A stretch of DNA of 45,000 nucleotides. Source: Candidatus Zixiibacteriota bacterium. GTDB taxonomy: Bacteria; Zixibacteria; MSB-5A5; CAIYYT01. Each line of letters opens with the position of its first letter. Within the stretch, counting starts at the first letter, position 1. The DNA lies in NCBI GenBank assembly GCA_020853795.1, contig JADYYF010000005.1, positions 1 to 45,000 of the forward strand, read 5' to 3'. A program made the position numbers and the translations under genes. The notes under the pieces were generated by a model that was given only the letters and a program-made list of their open reading frames with translations, was not told where the DNA came from and did not search any database. Of this stretch, positions 28,676 to 36,417 are shown piece by piece.

Positions 28676-29497
28676 TCAGCCCTTCAATGCGCCGGCAATG
28701 ATCCCCTCGGTGATTCGGCGCGAAAACAGCACAAACAGCACCATCGTCGGTAACGCCGAAATCGTGGCGGCGGCAAACAACTGCGGCAGATTGATGCTCT
28801 GATAACCCTGTAACAGCGCCAGCGCCACCGGCAGGGTGCGCATCGACTCCGATGACGTCAGAATGAAGGGGTAGATGAAGGAATTCCAGTTGACCAGAAA
28901 AACCTGCACGCCCAACACCGCCAGCGCCGGTCGACACAGCGGCATCACCACCCGCCAGATGATCGTCCACTCGCTCGCGCCCTCGATCCGCGCCGCTTCT
29001 TCCATGTCGGCCGGGATTGCGGAAATGTACTGCCGCATCATGAACACGCCCAGCGGCAACACGAGGAACGGCAGGATCAACGCCAGGTACGTGTCGAAAA
29101 TCCCCAGCCAGTTCGCAAGCAGATACATCGGAATGATGACCACGTGCGCCGGAATCATCAGCACCAGGATCACCGACAACATCACCAGCTTCTGGCCGCG
29201 AAACTCGCGCCGCGCCAAGACATAGCCGGCCAGCGTGCAAAACAACAAATTGCCCAGCGTGACCACGGCCGCCACCAGCAGGGAATTCAGCAGCGGGATG
29301 TACAACTGCGACTGCGAGAAGAGGAACGCGTAGTTGGTCAGCGTCCACGTAATTGCGCTCCAGTCGAGAGTCCCCGTTAACGTGAACGCGGTGGAGAATG
29401 AGCCGATCAGCATGTAAACGAACGGCGCCACGAAGACCGCCGCAATCACGAGTGCGATCAGGATTCGCAGGGTTGACTTCAGGGGCTGAGGCTTCAC
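28676..29497 (-). CDS. Sugar ABC transporter permease (MalG-type)
   Basis: The 273-residue protein has about six transmembrane helices and the EAA loop EEAARIEGASEWTIIWRVVM of importer permeases, which contacts the ATPase. MRQYISAIPADMEEAARIEG identifies it with the MalG/CUT1 type. It starts one base after the other permease's stop. It ends next to the amidase stop on the opposite strand, with no terminator between. The sugar is unknown. Confidence 0.93.
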   Translation of the reverse strand: MKPQPLKSTLRILIALVIAAVFVAPFVYMLIGSFSTAFTLTGTLDWSAITWTLTNYAFLFSQSQLYIPLLNSLLVAAVVTLGNLLFCTLAGYVLARREFRGQKLVMLSVILVLMIPAHVVIIPMYLLANWLGIFDTYLALILPFLVLPLGVFMMRQYISAIPADMEEAARIEGASEWTIIWRVVMPLCRPALAVLGVQVFLVNWNSFIYPFILTSSESMRTLPVALALLQGYQSINLPQLFAAATISALPTMVLFVLFSRRITEGIIAGALKG

Positions 29498-29498
29498 G

Positions 29499-30377
29499 TT
29501 ACACCGTCCGCTCCCGGATCAACTTCAACTCCAGCCAGGCGATCAGCGCGATCAGCGCGAAGAGCAGATTGGCCGCTGCTGCGCCATATCCGATGTTAAA
29601 CTTGTGCAGCCCCTCCTCGTACACGAAATAGACGATCGTCATCGTCGAATTCAACGGTCCGCCTTTCGTCATCACGAAAACCTCGACGAAGATCTGAAAC
29701 GACTTGATCGTGTTGAGAATCACGACGAACAAGAGCATCGGTTTGAGGTGCGGCAACGTCACAATCCGAAACCGCTGCCACCACGAGGCCCCCTCCAGCG
29801 CGGCGGCGTCGTACAGCTCGCGCGGAATCGACTGCAGTGCCGCCAGAAACAACAGCATGTAGTAACCGCTCGACATCCAGATATCCATCGCCATGATCGC
29901 CGGCAGCGCCGTCATCTGCGAGAAGAGAAAACCGTGTTCCGGCGCGCTCAAACCGGCCAGTTCGCCGAGCATCTGGATATACCCGCCGCGCGCATACAGC
30001 GAACTGAAAATCAGCGCCACCACGACCAGCGAGACGACCGATGGGAAAAAGTAAACCGATTGAAAGAACCGCCGCGCCGGCAGGTTGGCATTGAGAAACA
30101 ATGCCAGCAGAATCGCGCACGCCGTCGTCACCGGCAGCGTGCCCACCGTGAAGACCACCGTATTCAGGATCGCGCGCAGGAAGACATCGTCGGCAAACAG
30201 CCGGCGGAAATTCTCCGAGCCGACATACGCGAAGTTCCCCGAGAGGAGTTGGTAGTCCGTCAGCGAAACGGCAAACGAAGCGATGATCGGGAAGAGCCAG
30301 AACAGCAGCAGCGTCGCCAGCCACGGCGAGAGAAACAGCAGATCGGTGCGGCGAAAACTCCGTGAATTACCGGCCAT
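29499..30377 (-). CDS. Sugar ABC transporter permease (MalF-type)
   Basis: The 292-residue permease has about six membrane helices (LLFLSPWLATLLLFWLFPI at the N-terminus) and the EAA loop YDAAALEGASWWQRFRIVT, as in CUT1 importers. Its start overlaps the binding protein stop by 11 bases, and MalG-type permease follows after one base. Together with the lipoprotein they form a three-gene importer without an ATPase gene, which is common where one shared ATPase serves several CUT1 systems. Confidence 0.93.
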   Translation of the reverse strand: MAGNSRSFRRTDLLFLSPWLATLLLFWLFPIIASFAVSLTDYQLLSGNFAYVGSENFRRLFADDVFLRAILNTVVFTVGTLPVTTACAILLALFLNANLPARRFFQSVYFFPSVVSLVVVALIFSSLYARGGYIQMLGELAGLSAPEHGFLFSQMTALPAIMAMDIWMSSGYYMLLFLAALQSIPRELYDAAALEGASWWQRFRIVTLPHLKPMLLFVVILNTIKSFQIFVEVFVMTKGGPLNSTMTIVYFVYEEGLHKFNIGYGAAAANLLFALIALIAWLELKLIRERTV

Positions 30378-31605
30378 AACGACGCTGCAACACCTCGCCG
30401 CATTCGCGGTCGATCATCGCGAGCGCCTCGGCGGCGGAGAGTTTCTTGAAAATTGCCTGTTCAAGCCCCCGCTCCAGAATCTCCTCAACCGCCACCCAAT
30501 CCGGGTGCACCGGCGTCGCTCGCGATACCTTCAGCTGCTGCTGAAACACCGCCGCAACCGGCGCCAGCGCCGAGTCTAACGGCAACGGGGAATAACGATT
30601 CACCGGCGTAAAACTCCCCGTCGCCGCTGCGAATTTGCCGTCATTCTCCGGCAGTGTCAAGTGACGCAGCAGTGCCATCGCCAATGCGGGATTTGCACTC
30701 TGCGTATTCACGACCAGGTATTCGCCGCCGACAAACGAGACGCCGACTCCGGTCACCGTGTCGGCCGGCATCGCGGCCACTTCCCACTGCAACGCGGGGC
30801 GATCCTGCCGCAGGCGGCGCACCAGCCACTCTCCGGAAATGACGAAACCGACCTTGCCGGCCACGAAATATTCCTCCAACCGCGCTTGCGTCTCGATCAA
30901 GCCGGCATCGGACAACTGCAAGTAGAATTCCAGACTGCGCAGACCGGCAGAACTGCTGAACTGCGTGGAGGCTTGGTCGACGCCGAAAACTTCGCCGCCG
31001 GCGCTCCAGAAGAAGGGAAGGAACTTCTTGTAAAGCCGATGCCGCTCCGCCGAATTGCTGGCGAAACCAAAAATGTCGTTGCCGAGCGCATCCACCTTGC
31101 GCGCCGCATCCAGCAGCTCCGGCCACGTCCTCGGTACAAATTCCGGCGGATACCCCGCTTGCGCGAGCAATGACTTGTTACAGAACAAGACCCGTGTCCC
31201 CAGCATCCACGGCACGGCATAAGTCCCCCCGGCAAACTCCGCCGGCTCCCACATCAGCAGACTGTCGCGCAGGCCCCCAAGGTAAGGCGTCAAATCCAGC
31301 AATCGCCCGCCCGCCGCGAATTCGGCCACCCAGTCGGAGCCGAGCTCGATCACGTCGGGACCACCGCTGGCGGCCAGTCCGATCGCGATCTTCTCGTGGC
31401 CATCCGCCCAGGTGAGATCGCCCAACTGGACTTTCGCGGCCGCCTTGGCTTCGAAATCCGCCGCCATCCTCGTGACCACCGGCCGCACATCGGGGCTGGT
31501 CCAGAACTGCCACCAGGTCAACTGCTGCGGTCCGCCGGCTTGCTGCGAACACCCGGCCCCCATCAGGCCGATCATGATTAGCAATAAGAGTCGAGACTTC
31601 ATCAT
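30367..31605 (-). CDS. Sugar ABC transporter substrate-binding lipoprotein
   Basis: The 412-residue protein is a family 1 extracellular solute-binding protein. The N-terminus MMKSRLLLLIMIGLMGAGC has a lipobox, so the mature protein is a lipoprotein anchored at the membrane. LTWWQFWTSPDVRPVV, PDVIELGSDWVAEFAAGGRL and the later KVGFVISGEWLVRRL and NPALAMALLRHLT segments match the family. I chose the first of two adjacent ATGs at 31605; a further 13 upstream codons would put charged residues before the signal. It is the first gene of the importer operon. Upstream, towards the next gene, 176 bases carry no obvious terminator. Confidence 0.93.
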   Translation of the reverse strand: MMKSRLLLLIMIGLMGAGCSQQAGGPQQLTWWQFWTSPDVRPVVTRMAADFEAKAAAKVQLGDLTWADGHEKIAIGLAASGGPDVIELGSDWVAEFAAGGRLLDLTPYLGGLRDSLLMWEPAEFAGGTYAVPWMLGTRVLFCNKSLLAQAGYPPEFVPRTWPELLDAARKVDALGNDIFGFASNSAERHRLYKKFLPFFWSAGGEVFGVDQASTQFSSSAGLRSLEFYLQLSDAGLIETQARLEEYFVAGKVGFVISGEWLVRRLRQDRPALQWEVAAMPADTVTGVGVSFVGGEYLVVNTQSANPALAMALLRHLTLPENDGKFAAATGSFTPVNRYSPLPLDSALAPVAAVFQQQLKVSRATPVHPDWVAVEEILERGLEQAIFKKLSAAEALAMIDRECGEVLQRRYGR

Positions 31606-31811
31606 GCCACAACTGTGCCGACTTGCGGCACGCAAATCAACCAAAACACTGTAACTCCGGCGCCAAGTTTTTGTTGACCGCCCTCGCTGGCGCAGCCATG
31701 ATACTCACTGCTTTTGGCAACGACCGAATTCTGAGCGATTAATCATTCCGCCCGGGCACGGCATCCGGCCCTGCGTCGCGATTGCCGTTGTCCGCGGCCA
31801 ACGGAGCGCAC

Positions 31812-32573
31812 TTGCCGCAGTCAAATCTATTGCTCCTGATCTGGGTTCTGCTCGTCGCCGCCGTCGTGTTGTTCTTTACCCTGCGGCCGCGCGCCCTCCG
31901 CCGCGAGCTGCGGATGATCCCCGGCCTCAAAGCCGTTGACGAGGCCATCGGCCGATCGACCGAGCAGGGCCGCCCGATCGTCTTCACGACCGGTTGGGGC
32001 GGTGATATCCAGCGCGCCACGACTATCGCGGCGCTCAATATGCTGCGCCCCGTCGCTGCCCGAGCGGCCAGTTATGGCACCCGTCTGATATTTCCGACAC
32101 ACGACCCGGTGATCGCCGAGGCCGCCCGCGAGATCATCAAGGCTGCCTACGCCGAGCAGGGACATGCCGACCTGTTCCGCGAAGACGATATCGTCTTTGT
32201 GTCGCCCTCGCAATTCGGCTATGCCGCCGGCGTCGACGGCATCGTCTCCCGCGAAAAACCGGGCGCGCTCTTTCTCCTCGGGAGTTTCGAAGGTGAGGCC
32301 CTGATTCTCGCCGAAACCGGCAACATCAACGGCGCCCTGCAAATTGCCGGTACCGACTCGACGATTCAACTGTCGTTTTTCATCGTCGCTTGTGACTACA
32401 CCCTCATCGGCGAGGAGCTGTTTACCGCCTCGGCGTATTTGACCGCCGACGAGAAAGTGCGCGCTTCGATGATCGCACAGGATGCTCTCCGCTTGCTCTT
32501 GGTGGCGCTGCTGTTGTTGTTGCCGGTACTGGCGCTATTCGGCATTAATGGACACCGGAGTCTATTGCCATGA
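31812..32573 (+). CDS. Membrane protein with DUF6754-like soluble domain
   Basis: The 253-residue product has an N-terminal transmembrane helix (LLLLIWVLLVAAVVLFF), an alpha/beta soluble domain (EAIGRSTEQGRPIVFTTGWG, LNMLRPVAARAASYGTRLIF, VFVSPSQFGYAAGVDGIVSR) and a C-terminal hydrophobic segment. The EAIGRSTEQGRP segment recalls DUF6754 family proteins from Chloroflexi and other lineages; this assignment is from memory and not certain. The TTG at 31812 has a GGAG six bases ahead, so I prefer it to a TTG ten codons upstream. It overlaps the following gene as ATGA and begins the operon of unknown membrane proteins. Confidence 0.8.
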   Translation: MPQSNLLLLIWVLLVAAVVLFFTLRPRALRRELRMIPGLKAVDEAIGRSTEQGRPIVFTTGWGGDIQRATTIAALNMLRPVAARAASYGTRLIFPTHDPVIAEAAREIIKAAYAEQGHADLFREDDIVFVSPSQFGYAAGVDGIVSREKPGALFLLGSFEGEALILAETGNINGALQIAGTDSTIQLSFFIVACDYTLIGEELFTASAYLTADEKVRASMIAQDALRLLLVALLLLLPVLALFGINGHRSLLP

Positions 32574-33181
32574 GTGCGCGTTTGGCTGCTATCGTTGCCA
32601 CGATCGTCGGGCTGTTCATGGTCGCGCAATACTTCGTTCAGACCGGCGTCACCGCGACTATCTATCGCACCTTGCTCGACTACTACCAGATCATCTTTGC
32701 CGCGACAATGGTCGTTGGCGGTATTAGCGTGCTCAAGCATCACGCCCTGAGAGCCCGGGCCGGCCGCTCTGCTGCGATCTACAGCGGCTTGACGATTGCC
32801 TCACTGCTGTTCATGGTCATCGCCGCCGCCATCTTCGGCATCGATGCAAATTCGCCGTATCAGTGGGCCTTCAATAATCTGCAAGCCCCACTGCAGGCCA
32901 CCACCTTTTCTTTGCTGGCCTTCTTTGTGGCCTCGGCAGCCTATCGCGGCTTCCGTGTGCGCTCCCGGCCGGCGTTGGTGCTGGCGCTGACGGCGGTGAT
33001 CGTCCTGCTTGGCCGGAATGTCATCGGCGAAACCGTCAGCCGGGTGCTCCCCGATGTCGCCGCCTGGATCTTCAACAACCCCTCCTCGGCCGCCAAACGC
33101 GGGCTCCTGATCGGCGTCGGACTCGGCTCGGTCGCCACCGCCTTGCGCGTAATCCTCGGCGTCGAACGGAGCTACAGTTGA
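32570..33181 (+). CDS. Polytopic membrane protein of unknown function
   Basis: The 203-residue protein has about six hydrophobic helices (for example LAAIVATIVGLFMVAQYFV, IIFAATMVVGGISVL, LTIASLLFMVIAAAIFG, LVLALTAVIVLLG and the last, GLLIGVGLGSVATAL). SPYQWAFNNLQAPLQATTFSLLAF is the most distinctive part, with polar residues between helices. I cannot name a family. It overlaps the DUF6754-like gene by four bases and precedes an alpha/beta membrane-anchored gene by seven, so all are coexpressed. The pattern suggests a membrane subunit of a complex. Confidence 0.8.
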   Translation: MSARLAAIVATIVGLFMVAQYFVQTGVTATIYRTLLDYYQIIFAATMVVGGISVLKHHALRARAGRSAAIYSGLTIASLLFMVIAAAIFGIDANSPYQWAFNNLQAPLQATTFSLLAFFVASAAYRGFRVRSRPALVLALTAVIVLLGRNVIGETVSRVLPDVAAWIFNNPSSAAKRGLLIGVGLGSVATALRVILGVERSYS

Positions 33182-33188
33182 GGCAATC

Positions 33189-34007
33189 ATGACCAAACCG
33201 AGCGGCCGCCAAATCGTCTTCCTCGTCGTCGCCCTCGCCGTCACGTTGCCGGTGCTGCTGCAATTGCACCCGGCGAATGAGCCGTCCGACGAAACTCGCA
33301 ACTTCTTTGCCGCGATTGACTCGTTGCCGGCCGGCGCGACCATCCTGGTTTCCTTCGATTTCGAGGCCTCGGCCTACGCCGAAATTAAACCGCTTGGCGA
33401 TGCGTTGGTGCGGCACGCATTTGCGCGCAACGTCCGCATCCTCGGGCTGTCACTCTTTGCCGAAGGCACCGCCCTCGGCGCGCAATTGCTGCAATCCGCC
33501 GCTGATGAAGCCGGCAAAACGTACGGCGTCGACTACGCTTTCCTCGGCTTTCGCCCGCAATTTCGCTCGGCAATCCTCGCTCTGGCCGATACTATCACCA
33601 AGGAGTTTCCCAGCGATTACTACGGCCGAAGATCCGCAGGACTGCCGTTATTGCGCGAAGTCGTCAACTACGACAACCTGGCTTTTGTCGTCTCGCTCGC
33701 CGATGGCTCGATGCCGACCTATTGGGTCGAACACGCCGTGCTCCCTTACAAAGTTCGTCTCCTGACGATGTTGACCGCAACCATGGCGACCTCGTTTTCA
33801 CCCTATATCTCTTCGGGACAGATTGTGGCCCTGGCGTCGGGACTCAAGGGCGCCGCTGAATACGAAACCCTCCTGAAACAACCGGCCGCAGGGGCGCGCG
33901 GCATGTTTGCACTCTCCGTCGCCCAAATTGTAATCGTCCTGATTATCGTTGCCGGCAACGTCGCCGATCGTCGACGTCGAAGCACATCGCCGGAAGCAGG
34001 GAACTGA
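33189..34007 (+). CDS. Bitopic membrane protein with alpha/beta domain, unknown function
   Basis: This 272-residue protein has an N-terminal helix (IVFLVVALAVTLPVLLQL), a soluble region with alternating strands and helices (ATILVSFDFEASAYAEIKPLG, RNVRILGLSLFAEGTALGAQLLQ, VDYAFLGFRPQF) and a C-terminal helix (FALSVAQIVIVLIIVAGNVA). Its topology resembles that of the DUF6754-like protein two genes upstream, with a soluble alpha/beta domain held between terminal helices. TYWVEHAVLPYKVRLLTMLTA is a conserved-looking segment near the end. The first base of the next gene overlaps its stop. Confidence 0.78.
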   Translation: MTKPSGRQIVFLVVALAVTLPVLLQLHPANEPSDETRNFFAAIDSLPAGATILVSFDFEASAYAEIKPLGDALVRHAFARNVRILGLSLFAEGTALGAQLLQSAADEAGKTYGVDYAFLGFRPQFRSAILALADTITKEFPSDYYGRRSAGLPLLREVVNYDNLAFVVSLADGSMPTYWVEHAVLPYKVRLLTMLTATMATSFSPYISSGQIVALASGLKGAAEYETLLKQPAAGARGMFALSVAQIVIVLIIVAGNVADRRRRSTSPEAGN

Positions 34008-34636
34008 TGGACTGGGCCACCCTCGCAGCCGCCGCGGCAACGATCGCGATCCTTTCATTCCTATATCGCGACAACCCTCTCTATCGTGCGGCCGAACACA
34101 TCCTGATTGGCCTTTCCGTCGGCTTCACCGTCGTGTTGTTGTGGACTTCCGTGCTGCGCCCGAAACTGCTGTTGCCGTTATTTGGACAGGGAAATCTCTG
34201 GTCGTTGATTCCCCTGGCCTTAAGCCTGCTGATGCTGCTCCGCTTGCGCTCCGCCTGGGTCGGCTTGAGCAGACCAGTAATTGCGCTGGTCATCGGCGCT
34301 GGCGCCGGACTCTCGATCCCTGCCATGCTCGATGCGCGCATCCTCAAGCAGATGACGGCAACAATCGCCCCCTTCGCCGCCATCGGCGCAGCTCCCGGCA
34401 CCGATTGGGGGCTGCTGATTGACGCATCGGTGGGACTGATCGGCTGTTTGAGCGTGATGGTGTATTTCTTCTACACCCGCAGTAACCGCGGCCTCGCTCG
34501 CTGGGGCAGCAATGTCGGCGTATATTTCCTGATGATCTTCTTTGGCGCAACTTTTGGCTATACGGTGACCTCGCGCATCACTTTGCTGATCGGCCGGATC
34601 GAATTCCTGCTGGGGGACTTCCTGAAACTGCTATGA
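34007..34636 (+). CDS. Polytopic membrane protein of unknown function
   Basis: The 209-residue protein is mostly hydrophobic with six or seven helices, beginning WATLAAAAATIAILSFL and including LIGLSVGFTVVLLWTSVL, LVIGAGAGLSIPAML and YFLMIFFGATFGYTV. The ENPLYRAAEHI-type stretch (here DNPLYRAAEHILIGLSVG) and the terminal LIGRIEFLLGDFLKLL are notable. I do not recognise the family. It is the fourth gene of the membrane module, overlapped at its 3' end by the 41-residue zinc-ribbon gene. Confidence 0.78.
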   Translation: MDWATLAAAAATIAILSFLYRDNPLYRAAEHILIGLSVGFTVVLLWTSVLRPKLLLPLFGQGNLWSLIPLALSLLMLLRLRSAWVGLSRPVIALVIGAGAGLSIPAMLDARILKQMTATIAPFAAIGAAPGTDWGLLIDASVGLIGCLSVMVYFFYTRSNRGLARWGSNVGVYFLMIFFGATFGYTVTSRITLLIGRIEFLLGDFLKLL

Positions 34637-34758
34637 CCTGTCCGCGCTGCAAGGTTCGCATGAAGGAAGAAAAACGCTCCTTCCATAAACAGCGCAAATG
34701 GGTTTGTCCCCGCTGCGGCCGGGTACGCTTTCAGCAGCCGAAAGGAAAGAGCGAATGA
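34633..34758 (+). CDS. 41-residue double-CxxC zinc-ribbon protein
   Basis: Reading from the ATG at 34633 gives MTCPRCKVRMKEEKRSFHKQ continuing to a second CPRCGR motif and ending in PKGKSE, 41 residues in all. CPRC near the N-terminus and CPRC 22 residues later form a four-Cys zinc ribbon. Both ends are coupled: ATG overlaps the upstream stop (ATGA), and its TGA at 34756 overlaps the next ATG at 34755 in the same way. This arrangement on both sides is good evidence that it is a real gene despite the length. Its function is unknown; small ribbons of this kind often bind nucleic acid or act as assembly factors. Confidence 0.75.
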   Translation: MTCPRCKVRMKEEKRSFHKQRKWVCPRCGRVRFQQPKGKSE

Positions 34759-35540
34759 CGACGAAGGGCACTGTCAAAGTCGGAACTTCCGGCTACTCGT
34801 TCGCCGACTGGCAAACCGTGTTCTATCCGCCGCGATTGCCCAAGGCCAAAATGCTCGACTATTATGCCACCCAGTTCGATACTGTCGAGATCAACGCCAC
34901 TTACTACCGCATCCCGCCGCCGCCGACATTCGCAAGTATGGTCAGGCGCACCAAACCCCACTTCGAGTTCATGGTCAAAGCGCACGAATCGCTCACCCAC
35001 AAACGGCACCAGGCTCGCGAACTGACACCGGTATTCCGCGACGCTATTGCTCCCCTGGCTGAATCGGGGCGGCTTCAGGGGATTTTGGCGCAATTCCCGT
35101 GGTCGTTCGTGCGCAACCCGCAAAATCTGGATCACATTAAGACTTGCCGCGAGCTTTTAATCGATTATAATTTGTTCGTCGAATTCCGGCACGCCAGCTG
35201 GATTCGAACGGAGATCTTTGACTTATTGCGCGCCTTGGAGATCGGCTTCGTTTCTGTGGACGAACCCCAACTGGAACAAATGGTTCCGCCGGTCGCGGTG
35301 GCCACGATTCCGGTCGGCTATGTCAGATTCCACGGCCGAAATGCCGATAAATGGTATACCGGTGAGGGGTCCGATCGCTATGACTATCTCTACAGCGAAT
35401 CGGAATTGCAAGAGTGGATAACTAAGATCGAGGCACTGCGGTTAGAGGCAAAGACCGTGTACTTGTTTTTCAACAACTGCCATCAAGGGCAAGCGGTTAC
35501 CAATGCCCGGCAGATTCTGGAGATGCTTGATGTCTCTTAA
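34755..35540 (+). CDS. DUF72 family TIM-barrel protein
   Basis: The 261-residue protein belongs to DUF72 (YecE-like), seen in VKVGTSGYSFADWQTVFYPP at the N-terminus, DTVEINATYYRIPPPPTF, GILAQFPWSFVRNPQN and YVRFHGRNADKWYTGEGSDRYDYLYS. YLFFNNCHQGQAVTNARQI is the C-terminal family motif. I chose the ATG at 34755, which overlaps the zinc-ribbon stop; the open frame upstream lacks homology. The biochemical role of DUF72 is not settled. It overlaps the carboxypeptidase gene at the 3' end. Confidence 0.93.
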   Translation: MTTKGTVKVGTSGYSFADWQTVFYPPRLPKAKMLDYYATQFDTVEINATYYRIPPPPTFASMVRRTKPHFEFMVKAHESLTHKRHQARELTPVFRDAIAPLAESGRLQGILAQFPWSFVRNPQNLDHIKTCRELLIDYNLFVEFRHASWIRTEIFDLLRALEIGFVSVDEPQLEQMVPPVAVATIPVGYVRFHGRNADKWYTGEGSDRYDYLYSESELQEWITKIEALRLEAKTVYLFFNNCHQGQAVTNARQILEMLDVS

Positions 35541-36417
35541 GGCACTAAAGCGAATCTTCCTCCTCTTGGGAGCCACGGCGTTTACGCTGATGGTCGCCTT
35601 GGTGTCCCCCGCCAATCTCGCTATCACCAGCGGCCTCGTCGGACCGCTGCCACCGAAAGTGGATATCACCCGACCAGCGCCGTATCTGAACTGCGAATCC
35701 GCCTGCCTGTTCGACAACTACAACTCCATCAAACTCTACGGCAAGGATGAGCACATTGTCCGCCCCATCGCCAGCATCACCAAACTTCTCACCGCACTCA
35801 CCTTCCTCGACTATAAAGTCGACTGGAACAAGGAGGTCCCGATGATCATGGCTGACGTCGAGAACTCCAGCCGCTCGGTGCTCCGTGCCGGACACATCTA
35901 TCGCGTCCGTGACCTGATCCATGCTAGTCTGATGGGCTCCGATAACCGCGCCACCCGTGCTCTGGCGCGCTCGACCGGCGTCAGCCCCGATTCCTTCGTC
36001 ATCGCCATGAACGCCAAGGCGCGCGAACTGGGACTGCTGTCGATCCACGTCGAAGAACCGACCGGCTTGTCGGAAAATAACGTCGCCAATGCCGAAGACG
36101 TCGCTCGTCTGCTCAATACCGCTGCCAACAACCAAACGATCTCGCAAATCTTGCAGGAGAAGCAGTACACGTTTTCCTCGGTCAACAAGCACCGCCAATA
36201 TACCTTCGGCAATACCAACCGCCTGTTGCACGGCCGCTACGAGGTTGAAGGCGGCAAAACCGGCTACATCGAAGAAGCCGGTTGGTGTTTCACCGCCCGC
36301 GCTACCGACCGCGACGGCCACGACCTGACCGCCGTGGTGCTCGGCGCTCATTCCAACGGCCAGCGCTTCACGCAGGCGCAGAAGCTGTTCGACTGGGCTT
36401 TCAAACAACTGGACTAA
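35530..36417 (+). CDS. D-alanyl-D-alanine carboxypeptidase/endopeptidase, family S11
   Basis: The 295-residue protein is an S11 penicillin-binding protein that trims the D-Ala-D-Ala terminus or cross-bridges of peptidoglycan. It has an N-terminal hydrophobic signal/anchor (LKRIFLLLGATAFTLMVALV), the ASITK SxxK motif with Ser82 and Lys85, SDN at 137-139 and KTG at 243-245 (GGKTGYIEEAG). GSDNRATRALARSTG is typical of the PbpG/DacA group. It lacks the long C-terminal amphipathic helix of DacA, being closer in size to PbpG. The ATG at 35530 lies inside the end of the DUF72 gene, with a GGAG before it. It is the last gene of the operon. Confidence 0.93.
   Translation: MSLKALKRIFLLLGATAFTLMVALVSPANLAITSGLVGPLPPKVDITRPAPYLNCESACLFDNYNSIKLYGKDEHIVRPIASITKLLTALTFLDYKVDWNKEVPMIMADVENSSRSVLRAGHIYRVRDLIHASLMGSDNRATRALARSTGVSPDSFVIAMNAKARELGLLSIHVEEPTGLSENNVANAEDVARLLNTAANNQTISQILQEKQYTFSSVNKHRQYTFGNTNRLLHGRYEVEGGKTGYIEEAGWCFTARATDRDGHDLTAVVLGAHSNGQRFTQAQKLFDWAFKQLD

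Follow-up and report, generated by a model that had tools for sequence, protein, structure and literature searches.

Four adjacent genes of a Candidatus Zixiibacteriota genome, here termed P1 to P4, constitute a strictly ordered unit that is inherited and duplicated whole. Their products almost certainly act together and probably form one inner-membrane complex, for which the gene neighbours in other genomes suggest, as our best single guess, a motor-linked, envelope-spanning role. Nearly all genomes sampled from two uncultured phyla, Zixibacteria and WOR-3, carry the unit, yet only one of its proteins has a DUF name; the unit probably plays an important part in envelope building in these cells or in their feeding through the envelope. 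The window analysed is a stretch of 45,000 nucleotides at the start of contig JADYYF010000005.1, from a source genome of 3.56 Mb in 215 contigs. The unit and its surroundings in the window comprise the following features:

28676..31608, minus strand: carbohydrate-type ABC importer (solute-binding protein and two permeases), divergent, a conserved neighbour (solute-binding protein family match; recurrence)
31812..32573, plus strand: P1, DUF6754 protein, TM - cytoplasmic alpha/beta domain - TM (PF20539, AF2 model, topology, SD GGAG)
32570..33181, plus strand: P2, six-helix membrane protein, predicted N-in/C-in (no family above cut-off)
33189..34007, plus strand: P3, TM - periplasmic alpha/beta domain - TM (AF2 model, topology; no family)
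34007..34636, plus strand: P4, six-helix membrane protein, predicted N-out (no family above cut-off)
34633..34758, plus strand: P5, 41-aa zinc-ribbon protein, accessory of the window's locus class (CxxC...CxxC; 44 related loci)
34755..35540, plus strand: DUF72 protein (PF01904, E 1.1e-66; 32 loci with the same neighbour)
35503..36417, plus strand: S11 (D-Ala-D-Ala carboxypeptidase family) peptidase, longest ORF (PF00768, E 2.7e-43; neighbour in 29 loci)

The five open reading frames P1 to P5 lie where the sequence-only reading had placed them and are as tightly coupled as it proposed, with overlaps of 1-4 bp or a gap of 7 bp. P1 and P2 overlap by 4 bp (32570-32573), P3 and P4 share one base (34007), P4 and P5 overlap by 4 bp (34633-34636), and the 7 bp gap separates P2 from P3. 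A GGAG about 5 bases upstream of the TTG at 31812 leads us to prefer that start of P1 over the longest ORF (31782). The zinc ribbon had been taken for an integral fifth member closing the set, which is not borne out: the operon extends beyond P5 into the DUF72 gene, whose ATG at 34755 overlaps the P5 TGA by 4 bp, and the S11 peptidase gene then follows, its longest ORF overlapping the DUF72 gene. P5 is limited to one locus class, being present in 44 loci of the window's class, with no clear copy in the tandem array of the source genome. DUF72 and S11 peptidase genes also lie downstream in 32 and 29 related loci. On the other side of P1, the ABC importer families recur in divergent orientation in 55, 50 and 48 loci, so that these genes (28676-31608 in the window) are kept beside about 50 Zixibacteria loci.

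The recurrence of the four-gene order elsewhere, which the sequence-only reading had proposed as a check, is observed on a large scale and includes a second phylum. Public genomes yielded 406 P1 copies. In 322 of them P2, P3 and P4 come next, in this order and on one strand; 63 reach a contig end and 21 are without a partner internally. The order is thus kept in 322 of the 343 copies not cut by a contig end (94%). The collection partly overlaps itself, and these counts refer to places rather than independent lineages; the single collection-wide scan took in its best 80 loci. P1 was found in all 118 evenly sampled Zixibacteria genomes, mostly in 4-6 copies each, and in 94 of 100 sampled genomes of the WOR-3 phylum. 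Copy number in the two phyla is usually 2-6 per genome, often as tandem arrays of whole modules, and the P1 family was found in none of 14 well-known control genomes. A lone module sits in a record named Deltaproteobacteria RBG_16_49_23 (L056), whose phylum is otherwise without the family (P1 in 1 of 148 genomes, P4 in 2 of 59); horizontal transfer or a misbinned contig would account for it. Two apparent extensions of the range, in records labelled 'Calditrichaeota' (L041) and 'Ignavibacterium' (L043), were discarded, the matches lying at identical coordinates in the Zixibacteria genomes G077 and G036.

The source genome itself carries four further P1 copies. Three form a tandem (P1-P2-P3-P4) x 3 array on contig 136 (L086 9352-19997; L088), while the fourth, on contig 154, belongs to a partial module cut by the contig end. 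Genes near the triple array encode succinyl-CoA synthetase, 2-oxoacid:ferredoxin oxidoreductase, a lactate-racemase-like protein, malate dehydrogenase and a PEP-synthase-like protein. Between the array and the PEP-synthase-like gene lies an ORF (L086 8692-9249) with a low-complexity, repeat-like translation, which probably represents intergenic repeats rather than a protein. Triple arrays are common across Zixibacteria, and in the P1 tree copies from positions 1, 2 and 3 resolve, phylum-wide, into clades that are for the most part distinct. The single-copy locus of the window falls in a further class, clearly set apart, and the triple arrays of WOR-3 are of independent origin. A mirror-tree comparison gives correlated distances for P1 to P4 (r 0.83-0.90). 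Across 8178 comparisons, the nearest copy from a different array occupies the same register for P2, P3 and P4 in 81-83% of cases, where chance would give 44%. Both observations indicate that the modules duplicated whole.

Family searches name only the first protein. P1 matches PF20539 (DUF6754) with an E-value of 8.6e-83 and 277.8 bits against a curated cut-off of 27 bits, its residues 6-247 aligning to positions 11-252 of the 257-position profile; it is a full-length member, which bears out the earlier impression of a DUF6754-like protein. No Pfam or NCBIfam match above cut-off was obtained for P2, P3 or P4, or for the CxxC...CxxC mini-protein P5, and homologue sets of P2-P4 (67-76 sequences) point to no single Pfam family; the weak Pfam hits that P2 and P4 gave across numerous membrane families were taken as noise. 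P2-P4 are therefore assigned to none of the well-characterised, unrelated families that such searches might have revealed. A sequence search of P1-P4 against solved structures found no relative. The AF2 models are of good quality (pLDDT 87 for P1, 94 for P3) and depict both domains as Rossmann-like alpha/beta folds with the same order of elements. Their best Foldseek neighbours come from this broad class, which takes in GT-B transferases, SIS isomerases and LOG proteins, but the PDB matches are all weak (best E 1e-2 for P1; E 8e-4 and TM-score 0.36 for P3), with TM-scores to the query of at most 0.38, suggesting a shared general alpha/beta architecture rather than membership of these families. 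A viral fold search with P3 gave no match, and an interleukin-like (ILEI) match of P3 was set aside as weak (30 members, best E 0.004). Homology between P1 and P3 is only suggested, the profile comparison not being significant (second-best local alignment near full length, E 0.05), and homology between P2 and P4 was rejected at an hhalign probability below 5%.

Averages of hydropathy and charge over 180-212 homologues of each protein confirm the alternation of bitopic (P1, P3) and polytopic (P2, P4) proteins recognised in the sequence-only reading, and assign six helices each to P2 and P4. Long forms of P1 bear a signal peptide and an FN3-like region (a weak Ig-type Pfam match) ahead of TM1, an N-terminal extension that places the DUF6754 domain in the cytoplasm; the array copies have this signal peptide and periplasmic FN3-like domain, whereas the P1 of the window, a short form (TM-domain-TM), has neither. 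In P3 both ends are positive and the domain is net-negative, which predicts a periplasmic location for its alpha/beta domain. In the loci L071, L075 and L083 the P3 ORF is extended, and in L071 (1144-3066) the periplasmic domain has an insert of repeated coiled-coil-like segments. From their charge distribution P2 and P4 are predicted to have opposite orientations, N-in/C-in and N-out, respectively. Conserved motifs are SAxRGFRxR in a cytoplasmic loop and a C-terminal GIER in P2, and SFLYRDNPxYxxAEH in P4; the conserved polar residues of both proteins lie largely in cytoplasmic loops. Away from the helix ends no charged residue of the P2 and P4 helices is conserved at 70% or more, and proton conduction by these proteins themselves is therefore unlikely. 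A ligand site at the strand ends of P1 and P3 was also considered and rejected, conserved polar residues not being enriched there (p = 0.47 and 0.38).

Residue couplings are modestly in favour of a single complex. They were computed from 266 concatenated modules, whose effective number is small (Neff 174 at 80% identity and 43 at 62%). The pair P2 L74-P4 A28 ranks second of 410,030, and P2 L74-P4 I32, P2 S78-P4 I32 and P2 S78-P4 L36 support it in helical register, a pattern suggestive of a parallel contact between P2 TM3 and P4 TM2 that would fit the predicted orientations. Further clusters link P1 L236/V239 with P3 V254, residues of the P1 domain with the cytoplasmic end of P2 TM6, and, on the periplasmic side, P2 K176/L180 with P3 S202/Y206. 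Of the top 60-100 inter-protein pairs, 13-18% contradict the topology, versus 32% of all pairs (shift null, p = 0.02); taken individually, only one protein pair falls below p = 0.05. The recurring gene order and the lack of a characterised family for P2-P4 support the earlier proposal of a membrane complex built from paired topologies.

Additional clues on the role of the module come from its neighbours. Seven WOR-3 loci show the co-directional order P1-P2-P3-P4-DUF4388-n18-n19-two small TM proteins-ExbB-ExbD-ExbD, with most gaps of a few bases and a TonB-type gene next where examined; one of the seven has a single ExbD at its call threshold. A Roadblock assignment of n18 was not supported. 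Four WOR-3 loci carry MutL (GlmL family) and n0 directly upstream of P1, and some WOR-3 loci have capsule/export protein neighbours. In Zixibacteria, some arrays adjoin MutL-n4-n0-TolQ-ExbD-TonB-TolB-Pal (an OmpA/Pal-type gene): MutL is nearby in 35, n0 in 33 and TolQ in 14 of 74 array loci, compared with 4 and 4 of 106 single loci for MutL and n0. Since the arrangement differs between and within phyla, the linkage is not simply inherited synteny. Motor genes nonetheless adjoin a minority of copies (ExbB in 11 of 80 WOR-3 loci), and the window copy is without them. The protein n0 is a highly conserved soluble protein of 375 aa, present in 59 of 60 Zixibacteria and 55 of 60 WOR-3 genomes, with only a weak RnfC/NqrA barrel-sandwich match; examples next to a GlmL/MutL-like gene are L145 13230-14357, G000:C17:8000-9124 and L256 10680-11804. 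By their conserved linkage, the TonB/Tol motors, the GlmL-like protein and n0 are concrete, testable candidate partners of the module.

In this context, we put forward that P1-P4 are likely to be the subunits of one inner-membrane complex. The bitopic P1 and P3 would expose their alpha/beta domains on opposite membrane faces, P1 inside and P3 outside, and the six-helix proteins P2 (N-in) and P4 (N-out) would supply the membrane part. Such a complex would form the inner-membrane core of a machine that spans the envelope, is coupled to a proton-motive-force motor, of either the ExbB/ExbD-TonB or the TolQ/TolR kind, and most likely moves something across the envelope; the array copies would have specialised by ancient duplication, and the window copy would stand apart as a single-copy class that has a zinc-ribbon accessory. 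To this explanation as a whole we give an even chance. The earlier suggestion of transport, signalling or envelope assembly is not firmly narrowed by these data, although the linkage to ExbB/ExbD/TonB and Tol-Pal favours the envelope-spanning, motor-linked option. The genes that flank the unit in the window (ABC importer, DUF72, S11 peptidase) point away from this option.

The presence of an ABC importer beside the window copy agrees with an alternative scenario, in which P2 and P4, as an inverted pair, form the pore of a transporter or channel that acts on its own, independently of any Tol/TonB motor, with P1 as its cytoplasmic and P3 as its periplasmic gating or substrate-binding domain. The six helices of each protein in opposite predicted orientation, the glycine-rich helices lacking conserved buried charge, as in passive channels, and the central-metabolism genes beside the array copies of the source genome are consistent with such a pore. 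P2 and P4 are, however, without detectable homology, and there is no clear ligand site, given the strand-end result for P1 and P3; we consider this scenario unlikely. Domains on both membrane faces would also suit a transmembrane sensing or regulatory complex, with P3 and the FN3-like part of P1 sensing the periplasm and P1 relaying to cytoplasmic partners, candidates for these being the soluble proteins that share the operon in WOR-3, cytoplasmic DUF4388 among them, and the MutL/GlmL-type protein of both phyla. Yet two large polytopic subunits are unusual for sensors, and no known output domain, be it a kinase, GGDEF, HAMP or another, was found in the module; we regard this reading as decidedly unlikely.

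A structural or biogenesis platform of the envelope (scaffold, division, lipid or protein insertion), without transport of its own, would fit the near-universality of the module within the two phyla, its Tol-Pal and TolB neighbours and the capsule/export proteins at some WOR-3 loci. Specialised paralogue classes within one genome nevertheless fit different substrates better than a single scaffold, and such a platform likewise appears decidedly unlikely. That P1-P4 are unrelated membrane genes, neighbours by chance, has nothing in its favour except the missing homology to known complexes; duplication as a unit and an order conserved, over two phyla, in 94% of the copies uncut by contig ends contradict it, leaving it practically negligible. 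Returning to the motor-linked complex, it is possible, and we say so only tentatively, that the module defines an undescribed class of machine, composed of half-modules P1+P2 and P3+P4 in opposite orientation and driven by motors of the ExbB/ExbD or Tol type, a class that would be nearly universal in Zixibacteria and WOR-3 and would have diversified there by repeated whole-module duplication. The family libraries and literature searched hold no described system matching the four-protein module, and DUF6754 is named in no paper of that literature; the module could yet turn out to be a remote relative of a known system. The Pfam entry PF20539 covers P1 alone and is silent on P2-P4, topology, arrays and neighbours.

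Among known systems, ExbB/ExbD-TonB and TolQ/TolR-TolA/Tol-Pal are likewise inner-membrane, envelope-spanning machines, and their genes adjoin the module in both phyla. In contrast to them, P1-P4 have no MotA_ExbB, ExbD or TonB domain, the motor genes being separate neighbours, and the helices of P2 and P4, to which this comparison refers, have no conserved mid-membrane charged residue. The module differs from an ABC transporter in having no ABC ATPase among P1-P5, and the adjoining ABC importer is divergent and separate. Transporters of dual or opposite topology are represented by the SMR and Fluc types. Like these, the module has two membrane subunits of equal helix number, for which the charge distribution predicts opposite orientations; unlike them, P2 and P4 share no detectable homology, span the membrane with six helices each and are accompanied by two bitopic alpha/beta partners.
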